Source: Ptychodera flava
Lineage: Eukaryota; Hemichordata; Enteropneusta; Ptychoderidae
Assembly (NCBI RefSeq): GCF_041260155.1
Contig: NC_091929.1
Location: 31,981,962 to 32,045,961 of the forward strand
Direction of reading: 5' to 3'
Length of the DNA stretch: 64,000 bases
The stretch's first letter is position 1; each line of letters begins with the position of its first letter. This document shows, piece after piece, positions 6,081-59,971 of the stretch. A program made the translations under genes and the position numbers. Under the pieces are notes generated by a model. The model was not told where the DNA came from, made no database searches, and was given only the letters and a program-made list of their open reading frames with translations.

Positions 6081-6324
6081 TATGGAAGACCGGTCACGAC
6101 ATGCGACATGCGATTTGCTGTTAGGGTTAGTGTTAGGGTTAGGGTAGGGTTACCTGCGTCTTTAAACTGTGATCTGCGACCTAACCGTAACCGTAACCCT
6201 AACCCTACCCTAACCCTAACCCCCAACCCTACCCCTACCCCTAACACTAACACTAACACTAACCCTAACCGCAGATCGCAGTTTAAAAAACTCGCATGTC
6301 GCATGTCGTGACCGGTCTTCCATA
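6081..6324. mobile_element. Foldback element with telomere-like TTAGGG/CCCTAA core
   Basis: A 244-bp element with inverted ends of about 32 bp (TATGGAAGACCGGTCACGAC on the left, its complement on the right), flanked by a direct repeat CTTTTG (6,075-6,080 and 6,325-6,330). The interior contains degenerate TTAGGG on the left arm and CCCTAA/CACTAA on the right, also in inverted orientation. The right end recurs alone near 49,330-49,388. The flanking direct repeats suggest insertion as a mobile element rather than a relic of a chromosome end. Confidence 0.7.
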
Positions 6325-10891: not shown

Positions 10892-12928
10892 TCAGACACA
10901 AGAATGGATCAACATATGGTTTTTAAGATGGCCCTTCTGTGTGAATGTTTTACCACACTCTTTACATTCATGTGGTCTGACACCAGAATGGATCAACATA
11001 TGCTTTTTAAGACTGCTCTTGTGTGTAAATGTTTTACCACACTCTTTACATTCGTGTGGTCTGACACCAGAGTGGATTAACATATGGTTGAGTACCTGGT
11101 CCTTCCTTTTAAATGTTTTACCACACTCTCCGCATTTATGAGGTTTGATCTCTGAATGAGTCAGCAAGTGCCTTTTAAGACTGCCCTTCCATGTGAATGT
11201 TTTACCACACTCTGCACATTCATGTTGTCTGACACCTGAATGGATCAACATATGCTTTCTAAGTCCGTACTTCAGTGTGAATGTTTTACCACACTGTGTA
11301 CATTCATGTGGTCTGACACCAGAGTGGATCAACATATGTGTTGTAAGAGTGCTCCTTTGTTTGAATGTTTGACCACACTTTGTACATTCATGCTGTCTGA
11401 TACCAGTATGAGTCAACATATGGATTTTAAGATGTTCCTTCAGAATGAACATTTTGCCACACTCTATACATTCATGTGGTCTGGCACCAGAATGGATTAA
11501 CATATGTTTTTTAAGAGTGCACCTTAGTTTGAACATTTGACCACACTTTGTACATTCATGCTGTCTGATACCAGTATGAGTCAACATATGGCTTTTAAGG
11601 GTGCCCCTCTCTGTGAATGACTTACCACACTCTGCACATTCATGTGGTCTGACACCAGAATGGATTAACATATGGTTTTTAAGACTCTGCTTCTTTGTAA
11701 ATGTCTTACCACACTCTGTACATTCATGTGGTCTGACACCAGAATGGATTAACATATGACTTTTTAGACTTCCCTTATGTGCGAACTTTTGACCACACTT
11801 TGTACATTCATGTTGTCTGATACCAGTATGAGTCAACATATGGCTTTTAAGGGTGCCCCTCTCTGTGAATGACTTACCACACTCTGCACATTCATGTGGT
11901 CTGACGCCAGAATGGATTAACATATGACTTGTAAGACTGCCCTTTTGTGTGAATTTTTGACCACACTTTGTACATGCATACTGTCTGGTACCGGTATGGG
12001 TCAACATATGGCTGTTAAGATTGCTCTTCCGTGCAAATGTCTTACCACACTCTGAACATTTATATGGTCTGGTACCGGTATGGGTCAACATATGGCTGTT
12101 AAGATTGCTCTTCCGTGCAAATGTCTTACCACACTCTGAACATTCATGTGGTCTGACACCAGAATGGATTAACATATGACTTTGAAGAGTGTCCTTTCGT
12201 ATGAATTTTTGACCACACTTTGTACATTCATGCGGTCTGGTACCGGTATGGGTCAACATATGGCTGTTCAGACTGCCCTTCTGTGTGAATGTTTTACCAC
12301 ATTCTGCACATTCGTGTGGTCTGACACCAGAATGGATCAACATATGGTTGAGTACATGGGCCTTCCTTTGGAATGATTTTCCACACTCTCTGCATTTATT
12401 GGATATGATCTCTGAATGGCTCTGCATATGACTTTTAAGATTGCCCTTCTTTGTAAACGTTTTATCACACTCCTTGCATTTATATCGTCTGATATTTGAG
12501 TTGGTCCACATGTGTCTGACGATTGTCATTCTGAATTAATGTTTCACTGCACTCACTGTGTTTGAATGGCTGGAGATCAGAATTGATTACTGCAAGCCTC
12601 TTGAGATACATGTTGTCTCTGAAGGTCTCAACACTTTCTCCACATTCAATTTCTTGTGCCCTTGAGTTCAAGTTATGTGCTCCATCATTGCTGTTTTTCA
12701 CATAATTTTTACCACAGTCAGTGCTGACTTCACCATCATAGCTGTCCCCATTATGAGAATGGCACTCCATCAAACGGAAGGGATCTTTGTGTAATGTAGA
12801 TTGGTGTTCAATATGATTGCCCTCATACCATGGATTCAGGTCTTTGATGCTGTTCTCTTGGTTGGACATACCATATTCCCATGTTATACAGCAGTTTTGC
12901 ATAATGCTCTGTACAATTATTGATGCAT
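10892..12928 (-). CDS. Terminal exon of C2H2 zinc-finger gene A (19 fingers, one frameshift)
   Basis: The exon starts at an acceptor (TTTCTACTTACAG, first base 12,928) in phase 1. It encodes about 140 residues of acidic/Ser-Asn-rich linker (for example ASIIVQSIMQNCC, WYEGNHIEHQSTLHKD), then 19 C2H2 fingers ending at the stop at 10,892. Fingers follow C-x2-C-x12-H-x3-H, with linkers such as HSGVRPHEC and HTGTRPYKC in place of the usual TGEKP. The family binds DNA in the nucleus; targets cannot be read from the sequence. Near 12,505 a 2-base loss relative to copies B and C shifts the frame just before finger 1, so the linker and the fingers are in different frames. The 19-finger frame itself is clean. 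Either a pseudogene or an assembly indel. Confidence 0.8.
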
Positions 12929-20609: not shown

Positions 20610-22784
20610 ATGGCTGTTACTTCCAAAGTTGAAATTGCTTCATATAATTGCAATGGATTAGCAAATTCAGTTAAAAGAAGAGAGATCTTTACTTGGTTGC
20701 GAGATAAATCTTACAACATCTATTGTTTGCAAGAAACTCACTCCACTGTATGTAATGAAAGTTACTGGAAAGCTGAATGGGGTGCGGATATTTTTTTCAG
20801 TCATGGTACTAGTAATCGGAGAGGGATTGCAATTCTTTTGAAAAATAATTTTTCGTATACAGTAACCAAGAGTCCAAGACAAGTGTAGATTCTGAGGGTA
20901 GGTGGATTATGATGGATATTACTGTTGATACTCATCGGTTCATTCTTGTTTGTTTATATGCCCCAAATGATGATAATCCCCTTTTCTTTGAGATATCCAT
21001 TCACAAATTGTCGATTTCTGTGGTGATGTGTCTGATATCCTCATTTGCGGGGATTTTAACACACGTTCAAGATGATTTGGTTGACAGAGTAGGTACTGGA
21101 AAGAATGTTTATCATCGGAATGCATTCGAGAGCATTAAACATTTAATGCATTCGTGGGACTTGCATGACATCTGGCGATTACGTAACCCTTCTGTAAGGC
21201 GATACACGTGGAGGAGAGGCAATTCGGCCAGTAGGATTGATTATTTTTTAGTGCCATTTTCTTTTGTCTCAAAAATAACAGGTGTTACCATCGGCGAAAG
21301 ATATCGCTCAGATCATCACCTCATTGGTATTGGTTTGGAAACTAATGTGTTCACACGTGGAAAGGGGTATTGGCACTTCAATAATTCTCTCCTCAAAGAC
21401 CAAAATTTCATTATCCATTCACAACGTTTTATTTCCAACTTCTTTGTTGCTAATAATGGCTCTGCAAACCCTCACAGTGTCTGGGATGCCTTTAAATGTG
21501 CTTTTAGAGGCCACTGTATTAAGTTTAGCTCATTTAAGCAACGCAAAAGAACAGAAAAGGAGAATTGTCTTATTAGAGAAATTAATGAATTACATGCCAT
21601 CATTGATTCTGGGTCTAGTCATTGTCAAGGTGACCTTTCTCTCCGTTTGTCATTGAAACAGGAAGAACTTGAGTCTCTGTATGCAGAGAGAACAGGTGGT
21701 CTCATTATTCGTGCTAAAGCTAGGTGGATGGCTGATGGCGAACGTCCGACGAAATATTTTCTTAATCTTGTTCACAGGAATTATTCGAGGAAAAATGTCA
21801 TGACTTTAGTACAATCCGATGGTACCATTCTGTCAGACCCATTACAGATTTTGAGTGAAGAAGTTTTGTTTTACAGGAAACTTTATTCATTCGATCATCC
21901 CCCTATTTTACTTAGCAATGGAAATTGCCGAACTTTCTTTCCTGATAATTATTCTTGTCGTCTAGGTAGATCTGAACGGGAAACATGTGAAGGTTTAATT
22001 ACGATCAATGAGTTGTGGCAAGCTATCAGATCCTTCCCAGCTGAAAAATCTCCTGGCTCGGACGGTATTCCGGTTGAAGTTTAAAAAACATTTTTCAAAG
22101 AATTATATACACCCATGCTTCAATGTTTTAGTCATTCATATAATCTTGGGTTTTTATCATCCTCACAAAGAGAAGGGCTATTAGCACTTTTTTGAAACAG
22201 GATGCACAAGGTAATGATAAGGATCCAGTTTTTCTTAAAAATTGGCGACCTTAACTTTGCTTTGTTGTGATACTCGCATTTTGGCCAAGTGTCTTTCATT
22301 GCGAGTAAAACGGGTTATCACAAATATTATAAATGAGGACCAAACAGGTTTTATTCATGGTAGATTTATAGCAGATAATATTAGGAGGATTCTTGAAATT
22401 ATAGAATTGTACGAGAAGAATAATGAGCCTGGATTAGTCTTTATTGCCGATTTTGAAAAGGCCTTCGATAAAGTGAGATGGGATTTTATTTTTAAGTGCT
22501 TGGATTTTTTCAATTTTGGTCCATCATTTATGTCATGGGTGAAAGTTATGTATAACAACATTTCTAGTCGTATTATTAATTATGGTCATATTTCTGATAA
22601 TTTTAGTCTCTTTCGGGGCGTTCGACAAGGTTGTCCGCTGTCACCTTACTTATTTGTAATTGCTGTAGAGATTCTAGCGATTCGAGTAAGAAGTTGTAAA
22701 GAACTAAAGGTCTTAAAACAGGTCCCTTCGAAAATAAGATTTCACAATACGCCGACGATACTAACTTCCCAACTGAACCAGACC
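20610..22784 (+). pseudogene. 5' part of L1-type ORF2: endonuclease and reverse transcriptase
   Basis: From the ATG at 20,610: an apurinic-type endonuclease with SYNCNGLAN, LQETHS, RRGIAILLKN, LYAPND, SRIDYFLVP and RSDHHL, then the RT with GFIHGRFIADNIR, FIADFEKAFDKVRWDFI, GVRQGCPLSPYLF and, in a shifted frame, QYADDT at about 22,745-22,763. The gene would nick target DNA and prime reverse transcription. Frameshifts occur near 20,885 and 22,080-22,250. The reading ends at the target duplication, with the rest of ORF2 inverted at 16.7-18.3 kb. Confidence 0.85.
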
Positions 22785-22806
22785 GAGAGTAGAAAAGTTA
22801 CTGTAG

Positions 22807-23055
22807 TCGCCATTTAGACAACATTTGTGAAAAAAATCATCAAAACTTACAGGCTGTATTCATATGCAACCTGGAAACGGGACGGGAGATGTGGCATGCG
22901 GATTATAAAATTTCATACTTACAATCATTTGCCAAATCTCGCTCAACTAACCATCTGGTGTCTCTATGAATACCGTTTTTGTAATCAAAATGCAAAATTG
23001 GTTCCTTCTTCCCTTTAATAAATAAAGCCGTTGATATTTTGAAAACAGTGAGTGA
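22807..23055. repeat. Right end of segmental duplication, copy A
   Basis: This continues the copy A/B match (to 48,895 in B) and stops at GAAAACAGTGAGTG, after which the two diverge. No gene recognised. Confidence 0.7.
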
Positions 23056-23262: not shown

Positions 23263-25400
23263 TCAAAAAAGTAAAAGTTTGAATTCCGGTGCCCCACCTA
23301 AAGTCAGCTTCTAAACATCGAACGTTCGGCACTGGGGCAATTGTCAACTAAGCTATGGAGTACGACTCCGAGTCTATGCTAACGCTGCTGTACACTACAG
23401 TACCAGGCTCGCGTCGGTAATCAGTCATGCCCCGTGGGGGAAAGCTGAGTCTTGCTGACTCGGAGAAAAAAGCGGAAAAGAAAGTCTGCTAATTCCACCA
23501 GAATTCGCATAGGTGACTAGCACAGATACGTGCGGTTGATACATAGCGGCCGCGTTGTATGTACGCATACCACGCGCGGTGGGCGCCGCTATGCATCGAA
23601 CCACGCGTAACTGTGTGGCAGACGACAAAATGTAGTCATCGGAGGCGGCTAATATTTTACACGTAAAAACTGATATCTATGTGGTATTGGTTAAAAATAT
23701 AATAGAACTGACTGAGAATAATGAAAACGACAAAAACTAAGGAGAAGTTTAAAAACAAAATTACCTGAAGTGAAGGCATAATCCTGTGTATAAAAAGTCT
23801 TGGCATAGGGCCAAAGTCCCTGAAGCTACTATAGACATGGATACAAAATTAAGTATTTCCTGACTGTATGAAATTATCTCACTAAGGTCATCCTAGGGAC
23901 ATGTAAACCAAATATTAAAGCACTTTTGTGGAGGGACCGTGATTAAAGCTGTCTGACCAGCGGTTTTGAAAAAACAAGCGACTCAACAGTTGACAGAGCT
24001 CTGCTGTGTTATGTAGAGAATAACCTTTTGTGACACATGTATTGATGAAGAAGGTGGATATCTGTGATAGCTCATTTCAGGATGGCCTGACCAAAAATGG
24101 AAAAAAAATTCCGTAAAAATACAGATTTGCATATTTCATCACAATTTTAACAAATCTAAGTTGGGTTATCCCTAGGGACCTGTATACCAAATAACAAAGC
24201 TGTCTGACCAGTGGTTATGAAGAAGAAGATTTTTTACCAAAAACGCCTTTTTTGGTGCTAATTTGCATATTTTCAACAATATCAAAATTAATAAAAAGAG
24301 TTTCTCAAAATCATATATTTTATCCACACAACAAATATCAAATCAGTAAGTACTGCAGTTCTCAAGATATTTGAGTGGACGGACGCCTCACAAACGGACA
24401 TACATACATACATACATACATACATACATACATACATACTGACAGTGCATGCCGGACAGATACCCATCCCAATAGCTTCTATAGACTATATTAGTCTATA
24501 GTAGCTAATAAACGAGAGTTAATTACATTCTAATTAAAGTAAACAAGACTTGCTTAAATCAAGATTTTCATCATAAAAAAACAGCATATCTGTCAGGTTA
24601 TAAAGAATCTTAAGCTGGTTTAATCTTTATCAGTATTTTCATCCTATTAACCAAGCACATTTTAACTTTCAAATTAACATTGTAAGTAAGTTCTGTTGAA
24701 TAAGTTGAGACTGTACGTACTCAGAGAAAGCACACTGAAGAGACAAATGTTTGAAACTTAAGAAGTTCAAGGTCATCAAAAGCATCATGTAACACTTTCA
24801 TTGCACTGTTTACACAGATTGCATAATTGCTATAAATAGCACATGACGAATCTTACAGCCCAGCTTTACCATAAAAACCCTATCACTTTGACCACTCTTT
24901 TAATTGACCACTCTATTTTTTTCCTCAAAAAGTAATTTTATTTTATCCTTACCAAGTCAACCATAAATGGAAATTAGAACTTTCTCTATCTCTATTTATT
25001 TTACCACCCTATCATGACAAACTATTTTGAGCAATTTCTTTAAGATAACATACAGGGCACAATAAATGACGGTTCAGAATATGTCAAGTTGGGATTCAGG
25101 AAAGTTGCCTTTGCATGTTTTAATCCTCCAAGATGGTAGGCATTTCACTATGAACTGTCAAAAAAAGTTGAACTTTCTGATAATTCTACACTAAAATTAT
25201 TTTGGCTTTGATGATTTCCTAATTAATTCAATTATTTAAAATCATATTAATTATTTTTTTCTGGGTGAATTGATAGGGTTTATACAGTACAAGAATTACA
25301 TACGATGTAAGTCAAATTTTGATAAACAAGTCATCGTTGATGACACAGTCCCCACTTGTTAATGGGTACTTTGATTACAGGTCCTCAGAGAGGATAGAGT
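23263..25400. repeat. Mixed interspersed repeats between gene copies A and B
   Basis: This holds first versions of modules that recur in the 27.6-36.9 kb array: the segment from 23,973 (ACTCAACAGTTGACAGAGCT), the segment from 24,110 to 24,510 ending in an ACAT microsatellite and the palindromic CTATAGACTA motif, and 24,510-25,320. No coding gene recognised. Confidence 0.6.
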
Positions 25401-25559: not shown

Positions 25560-26645
25560 CATCCAGCTCTATGGGTTTGCTCAGAATTAGATATATGCAT
25601 AATTAATGAGGTACAGTATGAAGCATCATAAGGTCTCCAATCATACCATATATGAAGGGTGTACCACTTGTGGTTCCTGAGTTATGGACAAATATGTATA
25701 TTTAAGGTCAAAGGTCATCGACGTCATGTGACATTTTGTCAAAAAAATTGTAGTGCTAAGTTATCCCTATATACCAAAAATCAGACCTCTAGCTCTATTT
25801 GCTTGCTCAAAATTAGATATGCACATAACTAATGAGGTACAATATGTGGCGTCATAAGGTGTCCCGTCATACCATATATGAAGGGTGTAGCACTTGTGGT
25901 TACTGAGTTATGGACAAATATGTATATTTGAGGTCAAAGGTCACCGAGGTCACATGACATTTTGTCAAAAAAAATTGTATTGCTAAGTTATCCCTATATA
26001 CCAAAAATCAGACCTCTAGCTCTATTGGCTCGCTCAAAATTAGACATGCGCATAATTGATGAGGTACAATATGTGGCGTCATAAGGTGTCCCGTCATACC
26101 ATATATGAAGGGTGTACCACTTGTGGTTCCTGAGTTATGGACAATATGTATATTTTAAGTCAAAGGTCACCGAGGTCACGTGACATTTTGTCAAAAAAAT
26201 TGTAGTGCTAAGTTATCCCTATATACCAAAATCAGACCTCTAGCTCTATTTGCTTGCTCAAAATTAGATATGCACATAATTAATGAGGTACAATATGTGG
26301 CGTCATAAGGTGTCCCATCATACCAAATATGAAGGGTGTAGCACTTGTGGTTACTGAGTTATGCACAATATGTATATTTGAGGTCAAAGGTCACCGAGGT
26401 CACGTGACATTTTGTCAAAAAAATTTTAAAGCTAAGTTATCCATATATACAAAAAATCAGACCTCTAGCTCTATTGGCTCACTCAAAATTAGATATGCAC
26501 ATAATTAATGAGGTACAATATGTGGTGTCATAGGGTGTCCCATCATACCATATATGAAAGGTTTAGGACTTGTGGTTACTGAGTTATGGACAAATATGTA
26601 TATTCGAGGTCAAAGGTCACCAAGGTCACGTGACATTTTGTCAAA
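25560..26645. repeat. Tandem array of ~227-bp repeats with nuclear-receptor-type half sites
   Basis: Five monomers spaced 221-229 bp. Each carries AGGTCAAAGGTCA or a one-base variant (at 25,705, 25,931, 26,156, 26,381 and 26,607), and most also have a third AGGTCA 3 bp further on, which often runs into CACGTG. A perfect AGGTCA-A-AGGTCA is a DR1 site. A second array lies at 37,950-39,120. Regulation is not shown, only sequence resemblance. Confidence 0.8.
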
Positions 26646-27612: not shown

Positions 27613-30094
27613 ACAAGCGACTCAACAGTTGACAGAGCTCTGCTGTGTTATGTAGAGAATAACCTTTTGTGACACATGTATTGATGAAGAAGATGGATAT
27701 CTTAGATAGCTCATTTCAGGATGGCCTGACCAAAAATGGAAAAAATTCTGTAAAAATACACATTTGCATATTTCATCAGACTATATTAGTCTATAATAGC
27801 AAATAAACGAGAGTTAATTACATTCTCATTAAAGTAAACAAGACTTGCTTCAATCAAGATTTACGTCATAAAAAAACAGCATATCTGTCAGGTTATAAAG
27901 AATCTTGAGCTGATTATCTTTTAATATCAGTATTTTCATCCTATTAACCAAGCACACTATAACTTTCAAATTAACATTGTAAGTAAGTTCTGTTGAATAA
28001 GTTAAGACTGTACGTACTCAGAGAAAGCACACTGAAGAGACAAATGTTTGAAAACTTAAGAAGTTCAAGGTCATCAAAAGCATTATAAGGAATCATGTTA
28101 CACTTTCAATGAACTGTTTGCACAGATTGCATAATTGCTATAAATAGCACATGAGGAATCTTACAGCCCAGCTTTACCATAAAAACCCTATCACTTTGAC
28201 CACTCTTTTAATTGACCACTCTATTTTTTTCCTCAAAAGGTAATCTTATTTTATCCTTACCAAGTCAACCATAAATGGAATTAGAACTTTCTCTATCTCT
28301 ATTTATTTGACCACCCTATCATGACAAACTATTATGAGCAATTTCTTTTAGATAACATAAATGGTGGTTCAGAATATATCAAAGTTGGGATTCAGGAAAG
28401 TTGCCTTTACATGTTTTAATCCTCAATTCACTATGAACTGTCAAAAAAAAGTTGTACTTTCTGATAATTCCACACTAAAATTATTTTGGCTTTGATGATT
28501 TCCTAATTAATTCAATTATTTAAAATCATATTAATTATTTTTTTCTGGGTGAATTGATAGGGTTTATACAGTACAAGAATTACATACAATGTAAGTCAAA
28601 CTTTGACCAAAATGACAAAAAAATTCCTTAAAAATACACATTTGCATATTTCATCACAATTGAACAAATCTAAGTTGGGTTATCCCTAGGGACCTGTATA
28701 CCAAATAACAAAGCTGTCTGACCAGCGGTTATGAAGAAGATTTTTTATCAAAAACACCTTTTTTGGCATTAATTTGCCTATTTTCAACAATATCAAAAAA
28801 CTAAAAAAAATAGTTTCTCAAAATCATATTTTTCATCTACACAACAAATATCAAATCAGTAAGTACTGCGGTTCTCAAGATATTTGAGTGGACGGACGCC
28901 TCACAAACGGACATACATACATACATACATACATACATACATACATACATACATACATACAGACTGACGACGGACGCCGGACGGATACCCATCCCAATAG
29001 CTTCTATAGACTATAGTCTATAGTAGCTAAAAAGTCTTGGCAGTTGGAGGTAAAATTGCGTGGTTCGAACTTATTATGGACTCTCTAGAATATCGTCAAT
29101 CAGCACAACAACAAACCTTCAGGGGATATCGGGTCATAATCAGAAACAATCGTAAAACTTCGGGATGTGAAAAATACGCTCAGGAAATGACATGTTTTTA
29201 TCGATATCTCGCGATCTGTGCGCAGTCGCTATGTCAAATATCGACCGTTGGCATTACGAAAATGTGTTTTAAAAATGTTGCAAAGGGGGAGTGCCTCTTT
29301 AATATGCGGTTTTGACTTAATTACATGTCAGTGGTTAACAATTGCACATCTGAAATAACGAGTAGTATTCTATGAAGGAGGAGTCCCCGCCCGGAAAGCA
29401 AATGGTTCTCCCCTTAGAATCCATCAGTGCCCACTTTCAATCAAATTTAAACCCTAAGCACTCCTTGGCGGCCAAAGATCACGTCTGTGTGAATTTGGGT
29501 AGTGATAAAATGCTAAAATACAAGCGACATAAGAATCATTAAGTAATAGCCCCATGTAAGTCAGGAGTGAATAGCTATATGCTTACCAGCTCCAAAGATA
29601 GCCTCCAGGTACCCAACACTCACGACGTACCCGTAGGGCTATTGACTAATAGAAATGTGTTAACTAAATCTTAGCCTGCATCCACAAAATTAATAATGGT
29701 TGGGGTGGGTGGGGGTGGGGGCTGTACGAATTGTGATTAAAATATTTTTTTAGGTCTAGGGATGCACGTAAAGAAAAAACAAACATGTATTTGGCAGTTC
29801 TACTTGCAGATGTGCGACACTACCTGTTATTAGCAGTTTGTAGGGCCATATTTCTATAAGTTCATAAAGTGATTAATTTTTAAATGCATCAGTGGATTTT
29901 TTTATTTTTATAAGTCTAAGGCGACTTGAGTTAATCCAACTGAAGAGCACACTGTAGCAAGGCAGTAGCTGTATGAACTCTGAATATTCTGACAATATTT
30001 TTGTTAAAATTATAAAACTGCACTCTTGTTCTACTCCCTGCAGCATGTTGAACTGTCCAATGTCAATGTTCAGCTTGCCAACACACACACACAC

Positions 30095-30184
<90 letters not shown>

Positions 30185-30753
30185 GATGCTGGAGAATTGA
30201 TTTTACAATGTCATCTCTACAACGTTGTTTCGTGAGTCGCGAAACTCACTCATCAGGAGACTAGACTCCAGTCTAGTCTCCTGATGAGTGAGTTTCGCGA
30301 CTCACGAAACAACGTTGTAGAGATGACATTGTAAAATCAATTCTCCAGCATCCCTTATATATCTCGCTCTACTTTTGTATTGAGCACTTTGTATCGGACA
30401 AGTCGAACCGCATACTTCGTATATATATATATATATATATTGTATTTGATATATTGCACAAAATATTGAAAAATGTATCAACAGCTGCATATTCTGCCCC
30501 TTTAATACCTACTTGTTTGCATTTTTACGAAAAATCATCCATGTTGAGATTTTTTTGAGGTATGTCATATTTGATATTTTTCATCTACACACCAAATATC
30601 AAATCAGTAAGTACTGCGGTTCTCAAGATATTTGAGTGGACGGACGCCTCACAAACGGACATACATACATACATACATACATACAGACTGACGCGGACGC
30701 CGGACGGATACCCATCCCAATAGCTTCTATAGACTACAGTCTATAGTAGCTAA
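27613..30753. repeat. ~3.2-kb tandem unit 1
   Basis: Starts at ACTCAACAGTTGAC and runs through: module b (27,780-28,610), the ACAT-ending module (28,610-29,035), the right arm of the TTAA element (to 29,302), a unique-looking segment (29,305-30,095), a TA microsatellite, the hammerhead palindrome and a short repeat end. Unit 2 is nearly identical with small indels. Confidence 0.8.
30181..30356. ncRNA. Perfect 176-bp palindrome with a hammerhead ribozyme on each strand (unit 1)
   Basis: Arms of 87 bp are perfect inverted copies around a 2-base centre. On the plus strand: stem I GTCTC (30,276-30,280) pairs with GAGAT (30,320-30,324, one G-U); core CTGATGA (30,281-30,287); stem II GTGAG/CTCAC with loop TTTCGCGA; core GAAA (30,306-30,309); stem III ACAAC/GTTGT without a loop; cleavage triplet GTA ending at 30,319. 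All universally conserved core bases are present. The mirror arm gives the same ribozyme on the minus strand, with the site at 30,218. Short stem III hammerheads are known from Penelope-like elements. Whether it is transcribed or cleaves is not known. Confidence 0.85.
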
Positions 30754-33366
30754 CAAGCGACTCAACAGTTGACTGAGCTCTGCTGTATTATGTAGAGAAT
30801 ACCTTTTGTGACACATGTATTGATGAAGAAGGTGGATATCTTTGATAGCTCATTTCAGGATGGCCTGACCAAAAATGGAAAAAAATTCTGTAAAAATACA
30901 GATTTGCATATTTCATCAGACTATATTAGTCTATAATAGCAAATAAACGAGAGTTAATTACATTCTCATTAAAGTAAACAAGACTTGCTTCAATCAAGAT
31001 TTACGTCATAAAAAAACAGCATATCTGTCAGGTTATAAAGAATCTTGAGCTGATTATCTTTTAATATCAGTATTTTCATCCTATTAACCAAGCACACTAT
31101 AACTTTCAAATTAACATTGTAAGTAAGTTCTGTTGAATAAGTTGAGAATGTACGTACTCAGAGAAGAGCTGATTATCTTTTAGTATCAGTATTTTCATCC
31201 TATTAACCAAGCACACTATAACTTTCAAATTAACATTGTAAGTAAGTTCTGTTGAATAAGTTGAGACTGTACGTACTCAGAGAAAGCACACTGAAGAGAC
31301 AAATGTTTGAAACTTAAGAAGTTCAAGGTCATCAAAAGCATTATAAGGAATCATGTTACACTTTCAATGAACTGTTTGCACAGATTGCATAATTGCTATA
31401 AATAGCACATGAGGAATCTTACAGCCCAGCTTTACCATAAAAACCCTATCACTTTGACCACTCTTTTAATTGACCACTCTATTTTTTTCCTCAAAAGGTA
31501 ATCTTATTTTATCCTTACCAAGTCAACCATAAATGGAATTAGAACTTTCTCTATCTCTATTTATTTGACCACCCTATCATGACAAACTATTATGAGCAAT
31601 TTCTTTTAGATAACATAAATGGTGGTTCAGAATATATCAAAGTTGGGATTCAGGAAAGTTGCCTTTACATGTTTTAATCCTCAATTCACTATGAACTGTC
31701 AAAAAAAAGTTGTACTTTCTGATAATTCCACACTAAAATTATTTTGGCTTTGATGATTTCCTAATTAATTCAATTATTTAAAATCATATTAATAATTTTT
31801 TTCTGGGTGAATTGATAGGTTTATACAGTACAAGAATTACATACAATGTAAGTCAAACTTTGACCAAAAATGACAAAAAATTCCTTAAAAATACACATTT
31901 GCATATTTCATCACAATTTGAACAAATCTAAGTTGTGTTATCCCTAGGGACCTGTATACCAAATAACAAAGCTGTCTGACCAGCGGTTATGAAGAAGATT
32001 TTTTACCAAAAACACCTTTTTTGGCATTAATTTGCCTATTTTCAACAATATCAAAAAACTAAAAAAAATAGTTTCTCAAATCATATTTTTAATCTACACA
32101 CCAAATATCAAATCAGTAAGTACTGCGGTTCTCAAGATATTTGAGTGGACGGACGCCTCACAAACGGACATACATACATACATACATACATACATACATA
32201 CATACATACATACATACATACATACAGACTGACGACGGACGCCGGACGGATACCCATCCCAATAGCTTCTATAGACTATAGTCTATAGTAGCTAAAAAGT
32301 CTTGGCAGTTGGAGGTAAAATTGCGTGGTTCGAACTTATTATGGACTCCCTAGAATATCGTCAATCAGCACAACAACAAACCTTCAGGGATATCGGGTCA
32401 TAATCAAAACAATCGTAAAACTTCGGGATGTGAAAAATACGCTCAGGAAATGACATTTTTTTATCGATATCTCGCGATCTGTGCGCAGTCGCTACGTCAA
32501 ATATCGACCGTTGGCATTACGAAAATGTGTTTTACAAATGTTGCAAAGGGGGAGTGCCTCTTTAATATGCGGTTTTGACTTAATTACATGTCAGTGGTTA
32601 ACAATTGCACATCTGAAAATAACGAGTAGTATTGTATGAAGGAGGAGCCCCCGCCCGGAAAGCAAATGGTTCTCCCCTTAGAATCCATCAGTGCCCACTT
32701 TCAATCAAATTTAAACCCTAAGCACTCCTTGGCGGCCAAAGATCACGTCTGTGTGAATTTGGGTAGTGATAAAATGCTAAAATACAAGCGACATAAGAAT
32801 CGTTAAGTAATAGCCCCATGTAAGTCAGGAGTGAATAGCTATATGCTTTACCAGCTCCAAAGATAGCCTCCAGGTACCCAACACTCACGACGTACCCGTA
32901 GGGCTATTGACTAATAGAAATGTGTTAACTAAATCTTAGCCTGCATCCACAAAATTAATAATGGTTGGGGTGGGTGGGGGTGGGGGCTGTACGAAATGTG
33001 ATTAAAATATTTTTTTTAGGTCTAGGGATGCACGTAAAGAAAAAACAAACATGTATTTGGCAGTTCTACTTGCAGATGTGCGACACTACCTGTTATTAGC
33101 AGTTTGTAGGGCCATATTTCTATAAGTTCATAAAGTGATTAATTTTTAAATGCATCAGTGGATTTTTTATTTTTATAAGTCTAAGGCGACTTGAGTTAAT
33201 CCAACTGAAGAGCACACTGTAGCAAGGCAGTAGCTGTATGAACTCTGAATATTCTGACAATATTTTTGTTAAAATTATAAAACTGCACTCTTGTTCTACT
33301 CCCTGCAGCATGTTGAACTGTCCAATGTCAATGTTCAGCTTGCCAACACACACACACGTGTATATA

Positions 33367-33408
<42 letters not shown>

Positions 33409-33646
33409 GATGCTGGAGAATTGATTTTACAATGTCATCTCTACAACGTTGTTTCGTGAGTCGCGAAACTCACTCATCAGGAGACTAGACTCCAGTCTAG
33501 TCTCCTGATGAGTGAGTTTCGCGACTCACGAAACAACGTTGTAGAGATGACATTGTAAAATCAATTCTCCAGCATCCCTTATATATCTCGCTCTACTTTT
33601 GTATTGAGCACTTTGTATCGGACAAGTCGAACCGCATACTTCGTAT

Positions 33647-33696
<50 letters not shown>

Positions 33697-34011
33697 ATTT
33701 GATATATTGCACAAAAATATTGAAAAATGTATCAACAGCTGCATATTCTGCCCCTTTAATACCTACTTGTTTGCATTTTTACGAAAATCATCCATGTTGA
33801 GATTTTTTTGAGGTATGTCATATTTGATATTTTTCATCTACACACCAAATATCAAATCAGTAAGTACTGCGGTTCTCAAGATATTTGAGTGGACGGACGC
33901 CTCACAAACGGACATACATACATACATACATACATACATACAGACTGACGACGGACGCCGGACGGATACCCATCCCAATAGCTTCTATAGACTATAGTCT
34001 ATAGTAGCTAA
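30754..34011. repeat. ~3.2-kb tandem unit 2
   Basis: Same order of modules as unit 1. It has an extra ~120-bp internal duplication (31,048-31,165 and 31,166-31,285) that unit 1 lacks and unit 3 shares, so units 2 and 3 are closest relatives. Confidence 0.8.
33405..33580. ncRNA. Hammerhead ribozyme palindrome (unit 2)
   Basis: Identical in sequence to the unit 1 palindrome: CTGATGA at 33,505-33,511, plus-strand cleavage triplet ending at 33,543, mirror ribozyme on the minus strand. The flanking TA runs differ in length, so the palindrome has been conserved while its flanks changed. Confidence 0.85.
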
Positions 34012-36656
34012 CAAGCGACTCAACAGTTGACAGAGCTCTGCTGTGTTATGTAGAGAATAACCTTTTGTGACACATGTATTGATGAAGAAGGTGGATATCT
34101 TTGATAGCTCATTTCAGGATGGCCTGACCAAAAATGGAAAAAATATCTGTAAAAATACAGATTTGCATATTTCATCAGACTATATTAGTCTATAATAGCA
34201 AATAAACGAGAGTTAATTACATTCTCATTAAAGTAAACAAGACTTGCTTCAATCAAGATTTACGTCATAAAAAACAGCATATCTGTCAGGTTATAAAGAA
34301 TCTTGAGCTGATTATCTTTTAATATCAGTATTTTCATCCTATTAACAAGCACACTATAACTTTCAAATTAACATTGTAAGTAAGTTCTGTTGAATAAGTT
34401 GAGAATGTACGTACTCAGAGAAGAGCTGATTATCTTTTAGTATCAGTATTTTCATCCTATTAACCAAGCACACTATAACTTTCAAATTAACATTGTAAGT
34501 AAGTTCTGTTGAATAAGTTGAGACTGTACGTACTCAGAGAAAGCACACTGAAGAGACAAATGTTTGAAACTTAAGAAGTTCAAGGTCATCAAAAGCATTA
34601 TAAGGAATCATGTTACACTTTCAATGAACTGTTTGCACAGATTGCATAATGCTATAAATAGCACATGAGGAATCTTACAGCCCAGCTTTACCATAAAAAC
34701 CCTATCACTTTGACCACTCTTTTAATTGACCACTCTATTTTTTTCCTCAAAAGGTAATCTTATTTTATCCTTACCAAGTCAACCATAAATGGAATTAGAA
34801 CTTTCTCTATCTCTGTTTATTTGACCACACTATCATGACAAACTATTATGAGCAATTGCTTTTAGATAACATAAATGGTGGTTCAGAATATATCAAAGTT
34901 GGGATTCAGGAAAGTTGCCTTTACATGTTTTAATCCTCAATTCACTATGAACTGTCAAAAAAAAGTTGTACTTTCTGATAATTCCACACTAAAATTATTT
35001 TGGCTTTGATGATTTCCTAATTAATTCAATTATTTAAAATCATATTAATTATTTTTTTCTGGGTGAATTGATAGGGTTTATACAGTACAAGAATTACATA
35101 CAATGTAAGTCAAACTTTGACCAAAAATGACAAAAAAATTCCTTAAAAATACACATTTGCATATTTCATCACAATTTGAACAAATCTAAGTGGGTTATCC
35201 CTAGGGACCTGTATACCAAATAACAAAGCTGTCTGACCAGCGGTTATGAAGAAGATTTTTTACCAAAACACCCTTTTTTGGCATTAATTTGCCTATTTTC
35301 AACAATATCAAAAAACTAAAAAAAATGGTTTCTCAAAATCATATTTTTCATCTACACACCAATATCAAATCAGTAAGTACTGCGGTTCTCAAGATATTTG
35401 AGTGGACGGACGCCTCACAAACGGACATACATACATACATACATACATACATACATACATACATACATACATACATACATACATACATACATACATACAT
35501 ACATACATACATACATACATACATACATACATACATACATACAGACTGACGACGGACGCCGGACGGATACCCATCCCAATAGCTTCTATAGACTATAGTC
35601 TATAGTAGCTAAAAAGTCTTGGCAGTTGGAGGTAAAATTGCGTGGTTCGAACTTATTATGGACTCCCTAGAATATCGTCAATCAGCACAACAAAACCTTC
35701 AGGGATATCGGGTCATAATCAGAAACAATCGTAAAACTTCGGGATGTGAAAAATACGCTCAGGAAAGACATTTTTTATCGATATCTCGCGATCTGTGCGC
35801 AGTCGCTACGTCAAATATCGACCGTTGGCATTACGAAAATGTGTTTTAAAAATGTTGCAAAGTGGGAGTGCCTCTTTAATATGCGGTTTTGACTTAATTA
35901 CATGTCAGTGGTTAACAATTGCACATCTGAAAATAACAAGTAGTATTCTATGAAGGAGGAGCCCCCGCCCGGAAAGCAATGGTTCTCCCCTTAGAATCCA
36001 TCAGTGCCCACTTTCAATCAAATTTAAACCCTAAGCACTCCTTGGCGGCCAAAGATCACGTCTGTGTGAATTTGGGTAGTGATAAAATGCTAAAATACAA
36101 GCGACATAAGAATCATTAAGTAATAGCCCCATGTAAGTCAGGAGTGAATAGCTATATGCTTTACCAGCTCCAAAGATAGCCTCCAGGTACCCAACACTCA
36201 CGACGTACCCGTAGGGCTATTGACTAATAGAAATGTGTTAACTAAATCTTAGCCTGCATCCACAAAATTAATAATGGTTGGGGTGGGTGGGGTGGGGGCT
36301 GTACGAATTGTGATTAAAATATTTTTTTTAGGTCTAGGGATGCACGTAAAGAAAAACAAACATGTATTTGGCAGTTCTACTTGCAGATGTGCGACACTAC
36401 CTGTTATTAGCAGTTTGTAGGGCCATATTTCTATAAGTTCATAAAGTGATTAATTTTTAAATGCATCAGTGGATTTTTTTATTTTTATCAGTCTAAGGCG
36501 ACTTGAGTTAATCCAACTGAAGAGCACACTGTAGCAAGGCAGTAGCTGTATGAACTCTGAATATTCTGACAATATTTTTGTTAAAATTATAAAACTGCAC
36601 TCTTGTTCTACTCCCTGCAGCATGTTGAACTGTCCAATGTCAATGTTCAGCTTGCC

Positions 36657-36698
<42 letters not shown>

Positions 36699-36706
36699 TA
36701 TATATA

Positions 36707-36762
<56 letters not shown>

Positions 36763-36890
36763 TGTATTTGATATATTGCACAAAAATATTGAAAAATGTA
36801 TCAACAGCTGCATATTCTGCCCCTTTAATACCTACTTGTTTGCATTTTTACGAAAAATCATCCATGTTGAGATTTTTTTGAGGTATGTCA
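34012..36890. repeat. ~3.2-kb tandem unit 3, lacking the palindrome
   Basis: Follows unit 2 closely up to the TA run at about 36,700-36,757, then continues GAAATTGTATTTGATATATTG without the palindrome and the ~65 bases after it. Has a long AC run (36,659-36,694) and a long ACAT run (35,424-35,542). Ends near 36,890, where it diverges from units 1 and 2. Confidence 0.75.
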
Positions 36891-37409
36891 TGAAATGTGA
36901 CAAAATGGTACTAGATTTTGTTAAATTATTACTTACATTAGAACAATTGGATTACATTAAAACGTTATTTAAATGTTATGGGAGCAAAGCTTTTCCTTTA
37001 AAATGTCATGTGACATGGATGACCTTTGACCTCGATTTCACATAACACTAGAAAAATAATCTGAAAGTATATTTTAATGGTTTGAATATACATATATCAT
37101 GTTCATGGACTGCTTACAATCAGCAAAATTACTCGTAACAGTGATGAAACATCAACCATACGATGATTACTGCTCACATGGAAATACTAGACAAAATATT
37201 TTTCAAGCAATTTATTCTAACAGCGCCCCATCAGGGCGACTCTGATTTTATTGGCAATATTGACACCAGCATACAAAATTATCATTCATTGCAGTGTTAT
37301 AAAAGAATACCGGGGAGCCAGATTATTATAAAACGTTGGTGTTATTTCATTGAGATGAAGCTAGGTATTGTCAGCCATATTCTATAAAAAAATAGCGTCA
37401 ATGACACTG
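36891..37409. repeat. Left part of segmental duplication, copy B
   Basis: From 36,776 to about 36,980 it matches 54,985-55,345 ahead of gene C. From 37,228 to 37,388 it matches 6,391-6,550 ahead of gene A. No gene seen. Confidence 0.65.
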
Positions 37410-39872
37410 TAGCTCCCATCCTGGACTATTTAGTGTTTGTTCTCTGGTCAGATATTTGAACATGTGTGAAAGGGATAAAGTGCATGAAGTGAAAATACTT
37501 AAATGTAATGTACTGGAGACAGTGAAATATGTTTAATGTATTTATTCAGAATATAAAATGGAAAAAATACAGAATTAGATATATCGAATACTGTGATACA
37601 ACAATTAACTCAACAAGTCATTTACAATGACATAGTCCCCACTTGTAATAGGAGTATTAGTCTTGATGGGGCAGGAAAATGTGGTCATTAAGAAGTATCA
37701 CTGGAGTGTATATGTTGAGATCTATGGGCACATAGGTCTATGTCGTTGTTCCCAATTTGAAACACATGAGGCATGTCTAAGTTATGGTTCTAAATCGGGA
37801 AAAAAGATTAGACCTCTAGCAGTATTGGCCAGCCAAGAAATACATATGCGCATTATAAATGAGGTACAAGATGTGACATCTTAAGGTCTAATATCCTATC
37901 AAAATTGGAGGGTATAGAACTTGTGGTTACTGAGATATGCATATATATGTATAATCAAGGTCAAAGGTCATCGAGGTCACATGACATTTTGAAAAAAAAA
38001 ATTATATTGCTAATTTATCCCTATATGCCAAAAATAAGATCTCTAGCTCTATTGGCTTGCCCAGAATTAGATGTGTACATAATTAATGAGGTAAAGCGTG
38101 TGTTGTCATAAGGTCTCCCATCCTACTGAATACAAAGGACATAGCACTTGTGGTTACTTATTTATTGACATAAACATATATTTTAGGTAAAAGGTCATCG
38201 AGGTCACATGACATTTTGTCAAAATATTTCTCTCCTATAGTTATCCCTATATACCAAAAATCAGACATCCAGCTCTATTGGCTTGCTCAGAATGAGATAT
38301 GTGCATAATTGTTGAGGTACAGTATGTGGTGTCATACGGTGTCCAATCATACCAAATATGAAGGGTGTAGCACTTGTGGTTACTGAGTTATGGACAAATA
38401 TGTATATTTGAGGTCAATGGTCACCGAGGTCACGTGACATTTTGTCAAAAAAATTGTATTGCTAAGTTATCCCTATATACCAAAAATCAGACCTCTAGCT
38501 CTATTGGCTCGCTCAAAATTAGATATGCACATAATTAATGAGGTACAATATGTGGCGTCATAAGGTGTCCAATCATACAATACATGAAGGGTGTAGCACT
38601 TGTGGTTACTGAGTTATGGACAAATATGTATATCTGAGGTCAAAGGTCACCGATGTCATGTGACATTTTGTCAAAAAAATTGTATTGCTAAGTTATCCCT
38701 ATATACCAAAAATCAGACCTCTAGCTCTATTGGCTCGCTCAAAATTAGATATGTGCATAATTAATGAGGTACAATATGTGGCGTCATAAGGTGTCCCATC
38801 ATACCATACATGAAGGCTGTAGCACTTGTGGTTACTGAGTTATGGACAAATATGTATATTTGAGGTCAAAGGTCACCGAGGTCACGTGACATTTTGTCAA
38901 AAAAATTGTATTGCTAAGTTATCCCTATATACCAAAAATCAGACCTCTAGCTCTATTGGCTCGCTCAAAATTAGATATGTGCATAATTAATGAGGTACAA
39001 TATGTGGCGTCATAAAGGTGTCCCATCATACCATATATGAAGGGTGGTAGCACTTGTGGTTACTGAGTTATGGACAAATATGTATATTTGAGATCAAAGG
39101 TCATCAAGGTCACATGACATTTTGTCAAATATCCGAGATTCTGCATGAACGGATGGACTCACGGATGGACGAACAGACGGACATGACCCAATCTATAAGC
39201 CCATCTATAAGCTGCCCACTGGACTTCATCCATGGGGACTAAAAATTGTGTCACTGCATCCTCTTTGCAATATGAATACGATGAGAAACTAAATTTTTAT
39301 TTTCGTGGCCTTATACATGGGAGTCTATGGAGATCTGCCTAATACATGGGAGTCTATGGACGTGTAAACTAAAAATATGCAAATTTCACCACGATTTGCC
39401 CAAATTTGGCAAAGGTCATCCTATGCACTTCCATACCAAGTTTCAAATCAATTGGACTTGTGGTTTCAGAGAAGAAGATTTTTTGACCAAAAAGGGGAGA
39501 AAATTACAAAAAAATTCATGAAAAATAGCAAGTCCAAGATACTGACCCAAGATGTGCACAATCATTTCATGTCAGCCCAAAGTACATACATGCCAATTTT
39601 AAATGTAATCTGCTCAGTGGTTATTGAGTTTTTTCAATTTTGACTGTTTTTACATTTTTTCACTTAATTTGCATATTTTTGGCAATGACAACTTCATTTG
39701 AACAAAATCTCATCTACAGCCCATCATCCATGTACACACCAAATATCAAGATGAAATGTACAGCGGTTTTGGAGTTTTTGATGTTGACGGACAGACATAC
39801 AGACATACAGACATTTCCCTAGCCTATAAGAATAGCTTCCATTGCCATATATACATATGGCTATGGGAGCTA
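37410..39872. mobile_element. 2.5-kb repeat block inserted in copy B, with the second ~227-bp array
   Basis: Ends are short inverted repeats TAGCTCCCAT (37,410) and ATGGGAGCTA (39,863-39,872). Copy A has only CTATAAAAAACTTATG at this point (6,540-6,555). Inside are six monomers of the ~227-bp repeat (half-site motifs at 37,958, 38,186, 38,411, 38,637, 38,865 and 39,090, several with point variants) and two copies of the 26-bp minisatellite. No coding capacity recognised. Confidence 0.65.
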
Positions 39873-40357: not shown

Positions 40358-42790
40358 TTACATTTGAATGGTCAACATATGTATCTTAAGACCGCCCTCA
40401 TGTTTGAATGTTGTATGACACTTTTGCAATGGTATGATCTGAATCTTTTTAAAGAATCTTTTTAGGTAAACTTTCACCATGCCGTTTGTGTTTATACAGT
40501 CCGATATTTGAGCCGCTGTGTTCATGTAATCTTTGAGTGGGTTTGCACATGCCTTATAAAAATAAAAGTCTGTGACCACACTCTTTTACCCTCATGTTGT
40601 CTGACATCTGAATGGGTCAGCATATGGCTTTTAAGATGGCCCTTGTGTTTGAATGTTTTACCACACTCTGTACATGTCTGACAACAGAGAGGATCAACAT
40701 ATGGTTGAGTACCTAGTCCTTCCTTTTAAATGTTTTACCGCACACTCTGCATTGATATGACTTTTAAAATTGCCCTTGTATTTGAATGTTTGACCACATT
40801 CTCTACATTCATGTGGTTTGACAACAGAATGGATAAACATATGCAGGGCTACCCCTAAGTCACCAAAATGATTAGCCAACTCATTAGCCAAATCAAAAAT
40901 CTTTTAGCCATTTTGAGTAACTTTTAGCCAGTTTATGATCTCAAGTGTGGCAACAGCTTTCTCGTCATTCAGGAGTCCCTAATTTTACAAATCAAGTTGT
41001 TTTGTATGATGTTCATGATGGTTTTTACATTAAAGAAATATGTGTTTAGTTTTTGCATTTATAATCTGTGTTTTTATGACATTTCAGGGATAGAAATCCT
41101 TTTTCATTTTTGGTGGTAAACTTTAAACTCCAGAAATAAAATTAGGTAGCAATTGAATTCTAAATATCTGGTAGCAATGTTAAGTGTATATTACAAGAGG
41201 TACAGATTGAATATTTCTGCCACATTCAGTTAGTATTCACAGTATAATAGCTTGTCATAAGTTACAGGCTTCTCATGTGGCAAATTTATGCAGTCTTCCA
41301 TAACCTAAATGTTTGAGCCAACAAGTAAAACAATTTTCCATGCAGAAGACAGCATTTATGGTACAGCACAATGGCAGTGTAGATACAATTATTGTGGTAT
41401 TTAAGGCCCTGGTTTTACTTGTATGTCATAGTTGTGATCAAGCAGGCTGAAATAGCATCTTGAATATAAGTACTTTTCTTGAGACAAAAAGGGCTAGGCC
41501 AAACAAAACTCTTGTAAAACAAGACACAACGATATATATTCATTTAAATTACTCACTGTTTGAGGGCATTCATTGTTTTAATGATTATGATAACATTTTT
41601 GCCTAGATAATTTTTCATTTGATATTTTGATATCATCAAGAAATGTCTGGTGATGTTCACTTCTAGATCACTAAACTGGTGGAATCTACAAAAATATTAA
41701 AATCATTCAGAATCACATAATTTCTTGTATAAGTTATAGCAGTTTGAAAGTAGGCCGAATGGGAGTCAGTCAAGCTGAATGCCATTTAAATTGGAAGGCA
41801 GCAAAATTACCTTTCACCTATTGGACCACCCTAGGTGGTTTCTTGTGAACCATAATTGTGTAATTAGGGGGTCTTCATGCATGAAATCACATGATGAGAT
41901 GACCTAGATTTGACCTTTCAGATAACCTCAGTTTTTCTCCTTTTCCTTTGTATTATGACTCAGTTTGTGAAAGTTTCCTTTGAATATGGTTTTTACTATC
42001 AAACTGAGTAGTTGCAGGCCAAATTTTGATACAGCAAAGTAGGTAAAACTTTTGATAGACTCAAGGACGACCCAGGACTCTCAGAGGCAAAGCAGGCCTC
42101 AGTGTATTCATGGACGTTACGTTCATGATGTATTGTAGTATCGAACGGCAACAGTGTTTGTTTTACGTACCAGGGAATTTGTAACTTTGTAGAAAGGAGA
42201 TTAAACTGTTTCAATACATTGCAACTTTGTAGGAAGGAGGGTAAACTGTTTCAACATCTTACAAGTTATTGTTACGCGTGGTTTTCTGTTGAGGTCGTCT
42301 AAGAATTCGATATTCAATAGCCACTACATTAGCCAAACAGGAATTTTTGTAGCCATTTTTAACTTTCTTTCGCATTTGGCGAATTGGCGAATAGGTAGCG
42401 GGAGCCCTGCATATGCTTGAGTACATGGTCCTTCCTTTTAAATGTTTACCACACTCTCTGCATTGATGTGGTCTGATCTCTGAATGGATCAGCATATTAA
42501 TGTTTGTGACCACACTCTATACATTTACGCTGGCTGGTACCAGTACGGGTCAACACACGCATTATAGGTCAGTGATTCTGTGTGAAAGTTTTACCAAACT
42601 CTGTACATTCATATGGTCTGACAGTCAGTGACACAAGAATGGATTAATGTATGGTTGAATACCTTTTTCCTTCCTTTTAAATGTTTTACCTCTCGTCTCT
42701 GCATTTCCGGGTTCTGATCTTTTAATTGGTCCGCATGCGCCTTCTAAGACTGCCCTTCTTTATGAATGTTTGACCACACTCATCACATTC
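40358..42790 (-). pseudogene. Decayed zinc-finger repeats downstream of gene B
   Basis: Fragments matching 9,739-10,870 of copy A: KCHTTFKHEGGLKIHMLT, CRECGQTFKYKGNFKSH, CRECGKHLKGRT. They are split by the 1,566-bp hAT-like insertion at 40,844-42,409. Not functional. Confidence 0.75.
40844..42409. mobile_element. 1,566-bp hAT-like element inserted in copy B
   Basis: Ends CAGGGCTACC and GGGAGCCCTG are inverted and flanked by CATATG on both sides (40,838-40,843; 42,410-42,415). Copy A has the uninterrupted site at 10,505-10,515. CAGGG ends are typical of hAT elements; a 6-bp duplication is shorter than the usual 8. Both ends are rich in AGCCA/TGGCT motifs. No transposase frame is visible, so it is non-autonomous. 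Confidence 0.8.
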
Positions 42791-44162
42791 ATGCTGTCAG
42801 ACACAAGAATGGATCAACATAATGGTTTTTAAGACTGCTCTTGTGTGTGAATGTTTTACCACATTCTTTACATTCGTGTGGTCTGACACCAGAGTGGATT
42901 AACATATGGTTGAGTACCTGGTCCTTCCTTTTATATGTTTTACCACACTCTCCGCATTTATGAGGTCTGATCTCTGAATGAGTCAGCAAGTGCCTTTTAA
43001 GGGTGCCCCTCTCTGTGAATGACTTACCACACTCTGAACATTCATGTGGTCTGACACCAGAATGGATTAACATATGACTTTTAAGACTGCCCTTATGTGC
43101 GAACTTTTGACCACACTTTGTACATGCATACTGTCTGGTACCGGTATGGGTCAACATATGAATTTTAAGATTGCTCTTCCGTGCAAATGTCTTACCACAC
43201 TCTGAACATTTATATGGTCTGGTACCGGTATGGGTCAACATATGGCTGTTAAGATTGCTCTTCCGTGCAAATGTCTTACCACACTCTGAACATTCATGTG
43301 GTCTGACACCAGAATGGATTAACATATGACTTTTAAGACTGCCCTTATGTGCGAACTTTTGACCACACTCTGAACATGTATATGGTCTGGTACCGGTATG
43401 GGTCAACATATGGCTGTTAAGATTGCTCTTCCGTGCAAATGTCTTACCACACTCTGAACATTTATATGGTCTGGTACCGGTATGGGTCAACATATGGCTG
43501 TTCAGACTGCCCTTCTGTGTGAATGTTTTACCACACTCTGCACATTCATGTGGTCTGACACCAGAATGGATCAACATATGGTTGAGTACATTGGCCTTCC
43601 TTTGGAATGATTTTCCACACTCTCTGCATTTATTGGATATGATCTCTGAATGGCTCTGCATATGACTTTTAAGATTGCCCTTCTTTGTAAACGTTTTATC
43701 ACACTCCTTGCATTTATATGTCTGATATTTGAGTTGGTCAACACATGTGTCTCACGATTGTCATTCTGAATTAATCTTTCACTGCACTCACTGTGTTTGA
43801 ATGGCGGGAGATCAGAATTGATTACTGCAAGCCTCTTGAGATACATGTTGTCTCTGAAGGTCTCAACACTTTCTCCACATTCATTTCGTGTGCCCTTGAG
43901 TTCAAGTTATGTGCTCCATCATTGCTGTTTTTCACATAATTTTTACCACAGTCAGTGCTGATTTCACTATCATAGCTGTCCCCATTATGAGAATGGCACT
44001 CCACCAAACGGAAGGGATCTTTGTGTAATGTAGATTGGTGTTCAATATGATTGCCCTCATACCATGGATTCAGGTCTTTGATGCTGTTCTCTTGGTTGGA
44101 CATACCATATTCCCATGTTATACAGTAATATTGCATAATGCTCTGTACAATTATTGATGCAT
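42789..44162 (-). pseudogene. Terminal exon of zinc-finger gene B (frameshifted)
   Basis: Acceptor at 44,162 (TTTCTACTTACAG), phase 1 as in A. The linker region matches A until a 1-base loss near 43,882; another 1-base loss near 43,720 breaks finger 1; then ten fingers run clean from 43,661 to about 42,825, where an extra A removes the last His and changes the C-terminus to YVDPFLCLTA. Finger number is about half that of copy A, so fingers have been lost or gained in blocks. Three frameshifts make it a likely pseudogene unless they are assembly errors. Confidence 0.8.

Positions 44163-59898: not shown

Positions 59899-59971
<73 letters not shown>
59899..59971. repeat. Homopolymer of 73 C
   Basis: Uninterrupted C run; on the minus strand poly-G that could form quadruplexes. 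Its exact length is uncertain because sequencing of such runs is unreliable. Confidence 0.8.

Follow-up and report, generated by a model that had tools for sequence, protein, structure and literature searches.

Two identical copies of a 239-bp insert, each lying within a TA repeat, were identified in the window (the whole 64,000-nt stretch of DNA analysed here), and both arms of the palindrome in each copy carry a complete type I hammerhead motif (Table 1). As a feature of sequence and structure this motif is real; its ribozyme activity is predicted. From comparison with published elements we infer, with moderate confidence, that the palindrome represents a small insertion of Penelope-like element (PLE) origin, composed of two hammerhead-bearing end segments joined head to head, with a 3' tail on one side only, and set in (TA)n. 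We favour this reading because head-to-head arms, a one-sided 3' tail, an AT-rich target and a hammerhead together form the published pattern of PLE pseudo-LTRs (pLTRs). The inverted hammerhead pair looks like a case of this known PLE-end pattern, and not like a novel genetic device.

Read outward from the palindrome centre, each arm runs GUCUC - CUGAUGA - GUGAGUU UCGC GACUCAC - GAAA - CAACGUUG - UA - GAGAU, and the hammerhead core CUGAnGA ... GAAA ... UH is present in order in all 4 arms. This bears out the first-pass annotation, which had listed CTGATGA, stem II, GAAA, stem III, GTA and a five-pair stem I in that order on both strands, with one sense ribozyme motif per strand; the cleavage positions that it gave, 30319 (+) and 30218 (-), likewise follow from the sequence as predictions. 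Its stem measurements need revision. Three helices surround the core, with helix I as the open end: stem I comprises five pairs (GUCUC/GAGAU, one of them G-U), stem II has 7 bp and a UCGC loop rather than the 5 bp proposed, and stem III, described as loopless, has 2 bp beyond the A-U, with CAACGUUG able to pair C-G and A-U closed by ACGU. Because CAACGUUG is self-complementary, as 1 in 256 random octamers would be by simple arithmetic, an intermolecular duplex is an alternative to this small hairpin. An ATG lies within CTGATGA, and the reading frame that it opens closes after 16 residues. The motif was located with a structural descriptor requiring the core, stems I and II of 4 or more pairs and a short stem III, which gave 4 matches in the window; a simpler pattern also gave 4, against a mean of 0.02 over 100 shuffles. 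We ruled out that the motif arose by chance, as 0 of 150 dinucleotide-preserving shuffled windows contained a complete hammerhead.

The two arms join 5' to 5' around CC, and the outer ends of both lie where the TA repeat begins. What had been annotated as a perfect palindrome at 30181-30356 is in fact a pair of 93-bp arms (30175-30267 and 30270-30362) around this unpaired dinucleotide. Arm sequence was matched at 4 places in the window, arranged as two inverted pairs, and the second palindrome (33399-33586) adds to the earlier account. Insert copies 1 and 2 (30181-30419 and 33405-33643) show 0 differences over 239 positions. Both sides of the insert are flanked by (TA)n, which also occupies the empty site in unit 3 of the surrounding repeat; in units 1 and 2 the 57-bp extension sits between the palindrome and a further TA run.

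Table 1 Coordinates of the insert, its hammerhead motifs and the repeat that contains it (positions in the window).
Feature	Position	Strand	Remarks
Whole insert, copy 1	30181-30419	+	Palindrome plus one-sided extension within (TA)n; first base possibly TA repeat
Left arm	30175-30267	-	Head-to-head; exact reverse complement of 30270-30362, 93 bp; outer 6 bases are TA repeat
Unpaired CC, palindrome centre	30268-30269		Sole mismatch pair inside the palindrome
Right arm	30270-30362	+	93 bp; outer 6 bases TA-like
57-bp extension, right side only	30363-30419	+	Beside both palindromes, nowhere else in the window; missing from unit 3
(TA)42	30098-30181		Left flank of insert copy 1
(TA)10	30420-30439		Right flank of insert copy 1
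Insert copy 2	33405-33643	+	239 bp identical to copy 1; palindrome 33399-33586 (inverted match)
Type I hammerhead motif, copy 1	30276-30324	+	Descriptor scan; predicted cleavage after 30319
Hammerhead motif, copy 1	30213-30261	-	Descriptor scan; predicted cleavage after 30218, counting down
Hammerhead motif, copy 2	33500-33548	+	Descriptor scan
Hammerhead motif, copy 2	33437-33485	-	Descriptor scan
Three-unit repeat	27907-37150	+	Units 27907-31165, 31166-34422, 34423 onward; self-BLAST and three-way alignment
(TA)22 empty site, unit 3	36714-36757		Place corresponding to the insert

The limits of the insert are unusually clear, given the identical copies and an empty paralogous site 3 kb away. 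The first-pass annotation had spoken of a tandem satellite-like array: a repeat does exist, but it consists of three units of about 3.26 kb, one of them without the insert. Whilst two of the three units carry the insert, unit 3, whose similarity ends near 36891, has only AC and TA repeats at that place, and three-way alignment revealed that it lacks the palindrome and also the 57-bp extension (30363-30419), the latter being a further addition to the earlier account. No unit has a single arm; two of the three have two arms and one has none. Because unit 3 is without both together, palindrome and extension are most simply seen as a single insertion into (TA)n, the alternative histories being two steps, or loss from unit 3. 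Flanking substitutions number 28 in 2748 positions between units 1 and 2 (counted outside microsatellites, the region of the insert and the unit's end), 17 in 2204 between units 1 and 3, and 22 in 2204 between units 2 and 3, from which the branching order of the three units is not clear. Special conservation of the insert was considered and ruled out, as 2.4 differences were expected and the probability of zero is 0.088.

Several other repeats occur in this part of the window. Partial relatives of the 3.26-kb units lie at about 24000-25322, whilst 119-bp doublets (31047-31284 and 34305-34541) and several (ACAT)n runs were found within the three-unit repeat. The latter is flanked by arrays of a 226-bp tandem repeat (25565-26645 and 37803-39129), which are up to 93% alike across overlapping BLAST pieces. 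A short inverted motif, cttctatagactatagtctatagtagct, comes after (ACAT)n and a stretch rich in G+C at ~29000-29035, at 30723-30755 and at the corresponding places in the other units, and may be the end mark of a dispersed repeat.

The match to PLEs is one of anatomy, not of sequence, and the published comparisons made here draw on excerpts of the cited papers. PLE pLTRs are often head-to-head, with an optional tail on one 3' end and simple AT-rich targets, and their head-to-head ends have been explained by self-priming, which the same source terms unproven (PMC3846280). The insert shows an end-segment hammerhead motif, inverted head-to-head copies with a junction palindrome, and an AT-rich target; inverted head-to-head copies are a frequent feature of pLTRs rather than an obligatory one. 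The arrangement that the first-pass annotation had found unusual is therefore less so, and its Penelope lead fits the anatomy, whereas the short stem III is closer to retrozyme hammerheads. Pen2a_Av of Adineta vaga offers one of the nearest layouts in these excerpts, with adjacent inverted head-to-head pLTRs, palindromes at the inverted junction, an optional tail on one 3' end and simple AT-rich targets (PMC3846280). The insert differs from it in having no ORF and no further direct pLTR, in its arms of 93 bp against about 181-218 bp, in its extension of 57 bp against 31 bp, and in lacking a definable target-site duplication; the excerpted description of Pen2a_Av, for its part, mentions no hammerheads (PMC3846280). 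We compared the one-sided 57-bp extension, as a putative counterpart, with the optional PLE 3' tail.

Poseidon of Anolis carolinensis (PAc) resembles the insert in its end-segment hammerhead, which lies at the pLTR-ORF junction, and in its AT-rich target, the DNA that is cut being AT-rich (PMC11167929). Its reverse transcription begins 111-118 bp into the ORF and its hammerhead is cut 26 bp into the ORF, placing the reverse transcription start, by arithmetic from these excerpted figures, 85-92 nt beyond the cut (PMC11167929). By the same arithmetic the insert ends 100 nt beyond its predicted hammerhead cut, and the short arm ends 37-43 nt beyond it, so that the 3' ends of PAc and of the insert both fall roughly 85-100 nt beyond the cut. 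In PAc, however, the ORF starts at stem II, whereas the frame of the insert closes within 16 residues, and cleavage of the Anolis hammerhead needed protein, none being seen in its absence (PMC11167929), whilst cleavage of the insert is predicted. Because that hammerhead needs protein and its mutants left insertion in vitro unaffected (PMC11167929), a role of the ribozyme in mobility is putative. We also asked whether the extension resembles an AC-rich stem-loop of the kind found at the Anolis reverse transcription start, and set this candidate aside: an equally stable fold came from 19 of 200 shuffles (z -1.32), and the remaining three pieces are less notable still (z -0.39, 0.89 and -0.48).

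On a PLE origin, the insert probably formed by the following route. A PLE enzyme would nick AT-rich DNA, and reverse transcription would start inside the element RNA at the tail end, pass the hammerhead and halt only some bases past stem I; the end of the cDNA would then fold back on itself, in keeping with the published self-priming proposal, or switch template, giving the inverted arm, and duplication or conversion of units would carry the insert to two of the three. If it is a PLE end, the insert would be a small and nearly intact record of head-to-head end formation, the very step that PMC3846280 calls unproven.

Folding predictions suggest how the two hammerheads would behave in one transcript. 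The full palindrome folds at -171.5 kcal/mol, strongly supporting the earlier proposal that a read-through transcript would form one long hairpin, and the ensemble energy is -171.8 kcal/mol, as compared to -88.9 kcal/mol with the hammerhead enforced; predicted pairing with the antisense arm beats the ribozyme fold by about 83 kcal/mol. In a read-through transcript the hammerhead forms the second half, its complement being transcribed first. Minimum-energy folds of the growing transcript, computed as equilibrium folds of prefixes with no kinetic simulation, have 10 of 11 right-arm bases paired with the left arm at position 30280, and 54 of 55 at 30324, by which point the whole hammerhead has been transcribed. 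Because, in this head-to-head form, the antisense half would be made first and would pair with the emerging hammerhead, read-through transcripts of both strands probably carry a silent ribozyme. The insert may thereby illustrate why hammerheads in inverted ends can be silent, and its clear empty site and predicted hairpin lock make it useful as a test case, though hardly surprising.

When one arm is folded by itself, the hammerhead is a minority structure. In the 49-nt core its energy equals the minimum free energy and it makes up 4% of the ensemble, as compared to 0.5% in 30270-30362 and 0.1% when the extension is included; single-arm pieces do not exceed their shuffles in stability (z -0.23 to -0.74). 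Pairing of two strands is predicted to be more favourable: for the 49-nt core, the top joint fold of two strands is a double hammerhead whose 10-bp stem III spans the strands, at -34.9 kcal/mol against 2 x -10.1 kcal/mol, and the dimer of the 87-nt arm reaches -42.3 against 2 x -15.3 kcal/mol, the shuffled controls having covered single-strand folds. Minimal type I hammerheads in PLE pLTRs may self-cleave as dimers (PMC7761336); in the excerpts used, cleavage as a dimer is a published finding for amphibian motifs, and for PLE motifs a proposal. The self-complementary CAACGUUG would promote this mode of cleavage in the parent element.

The first-pass annotation had counted the lack of a covariance hit against its ribozyme, and a search of the whole window with Rfam release 15 returned 0 matches at the gathering score, thus neither RF00008 nor RF03152. 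Below threshold, RAGATH-1-hammerhead (RF03152) aligned to the palindrome across model positions 1-77, with the core in register and a hairpin upstream of stem I, but on the minus strand only and at 14.8 bits against a cut-off of 56.3, which is no match; Hammerhead_3 scored 13.2 bits against a cut-off of 48.5 on both strands (E about 5). A shorter stretch gave sub-threshold hammerhead scores of 14.8 bits (E 1.7) and 12.2 bits (E 3.3). Unrelated hairpin families outscored the hammerheads on the palindrome, with WsnRNA46 at 49.4 bits and mir-5615 at 43.1 bits, both below their cut-offs, because the palindrome is a long hairpin and any such hairpin would score. Searched alone, 30262-30430 (a single arm with the extension) matched no hammerhead family at E up to 10; its two matches were both microRNA families. 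Published minimal hammerheads of the PLE type may lie outside the Rfam models, and, judging from this one case, covariance searches by themselves probably undercount such motifs.

Searches for genes and relatives yielded little. A six-frame Pfam scan of 27901-37202 revealed no PLE reverse transcriptase or GIY-YIG domain, its only hits being ATE_N and Bromo_TP below cut-off. We therefore class the insert as a probable PLE-derived fragment and not as a PLE, since an ORF with a telomerase-like reverse transcriptase and a GIY-YIG endonuclease was not found nearby. No relatives of the insert were found in viral_contigs by five specific-pattern scans, nor in genome_contigs, and short translated stretches of the arm and extension found 0 proteins; animal genomes are scarce or missing in these collections, so that the absence of relatives means little. 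Eleven viral stretches with a loose hammerhead pattern were rejected, as the Rfam gathering score returned 0 hammerheads among them and one match, to Betaproteobacteria-1 RNA. The literature searched, which was of limited coverage, gave no description of hammerheads in inverted PLE ends, and we do not claim that none is in print.

Several observations count against a PLE origin. The 57-bp extension exceeds the 30-40 bp of published PLE tails, and neither an element RNA nor the start of an ORF could be aligned with it; the searches above found no PLE gene nearby, no relative and no Rfam hammerhead above threshold; single arms fold like shuffles, with the hammerhead a minority of the ensemble; and a target-site duplication is undefinable inside (TA)n. 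Stem III also sits awkwardly, since PLE hammerheads usually lack helix III (PMC6155905, PMC7761336), whereas the insert, with two pairs and a tetraloop, has a longer stem III than most published PLE copies. In this it comes closer to the hammerheads of animal non-LTR retrozymes, being likewise of type I, and its stem III of two pairs with a palindromic tetraloop matches the excerpted description of invertebrate retrozyme and axolotl type 2 hammerheads (PMC7229834). The source of the arm might then be a non-autonomous retrozyme of animals, its cDNA having become joined head to head during integration, the more so as retrozymes are thought to be mobilised by PLEs (PMC7761336, PMC7229834). We nonetheless hold this second-ranked reading to be unlikely: by published description, retrozymes form direct tandems of about 150-450 bp (PMC7229834), whilst the insert is an inverted pair with an extension, the arm is nowhere in direct tandem in the window (its 4 matches make up two inverted pairs), and the tandem period that does exist is about 3.26 kb.

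The 93-bp near-perfect inverted repeats with TA at both sides also recall a palindromic DNA transposon. Tc1/mariner elements target TA, and a remnant of a TA-inserting MITE of this type could hold a hammerhead by coincidence or capture. This is improbable, because the empty unit lacks the 57-bp extension as well, which a simple TA-to-TA insertion fails to explain, and none of the 150 shuffled windows produced a complete hammerhead; the TA on both sides is itself uninformative, as TA duplication cannot be judged inside (TA)n. A CC spacer and 93-bp arms would equally be expected if a single hammerhead-bearing end had undergone local inverted duplication after its insertion, through a fold-back during replication or repair, and the array's first unit might have acquired the palindrome in this manner and then passed it on. 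Against such a history, both arms have their outer ends where the TA repeat begins, a unit with a single arm is not seen among the 3 units, and head-to-head joining is already known for PLEs (PMC3846280, in the excerpt used); we regard it, too, as improbable. Finally, the head-to-head palindrome might itself be mobile, with a ribozyme on both strands that is locked in the hairpin and active only when two arm RNAs pair through CAACGUUG, in which case cleavage would depend on RNA concentration. We consider this very improbable, and an end fragment derived from a PLE remains the origin that we prefer.

The window as a whole is eukaryotic in character, with C2H2 zinc-finger arrays, a LINE-like reverse transcriptase and many microsatellites. 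Long C2H2 zinc-finger arrays, their repeat period being 84 bp, lie at 10892-12535, 42789-43751, 55549-57033 and 57424-58245 (minus strand); Pfam confirmed the first, and the others were judged from translation. A broken LINE-like element occupies 20849-22817 (+), with a reverse transcriptase domain (PF00078) at 22239-22817; homologues of its upstream frame, 20849-22084, carry endonuclease and reverse transcriptase domains, and the matches of this fragment are distant and animal-like (Oculina and Mytilus at 30%, 29% and 24% identity; best match 49%). A run of 73 C lies on the plus strand at 59899-59971, and short, interspersed telomere-like hexamers, GTTAGG followed by CCTAAC, were observed at 6120-6270, away from a contig end.
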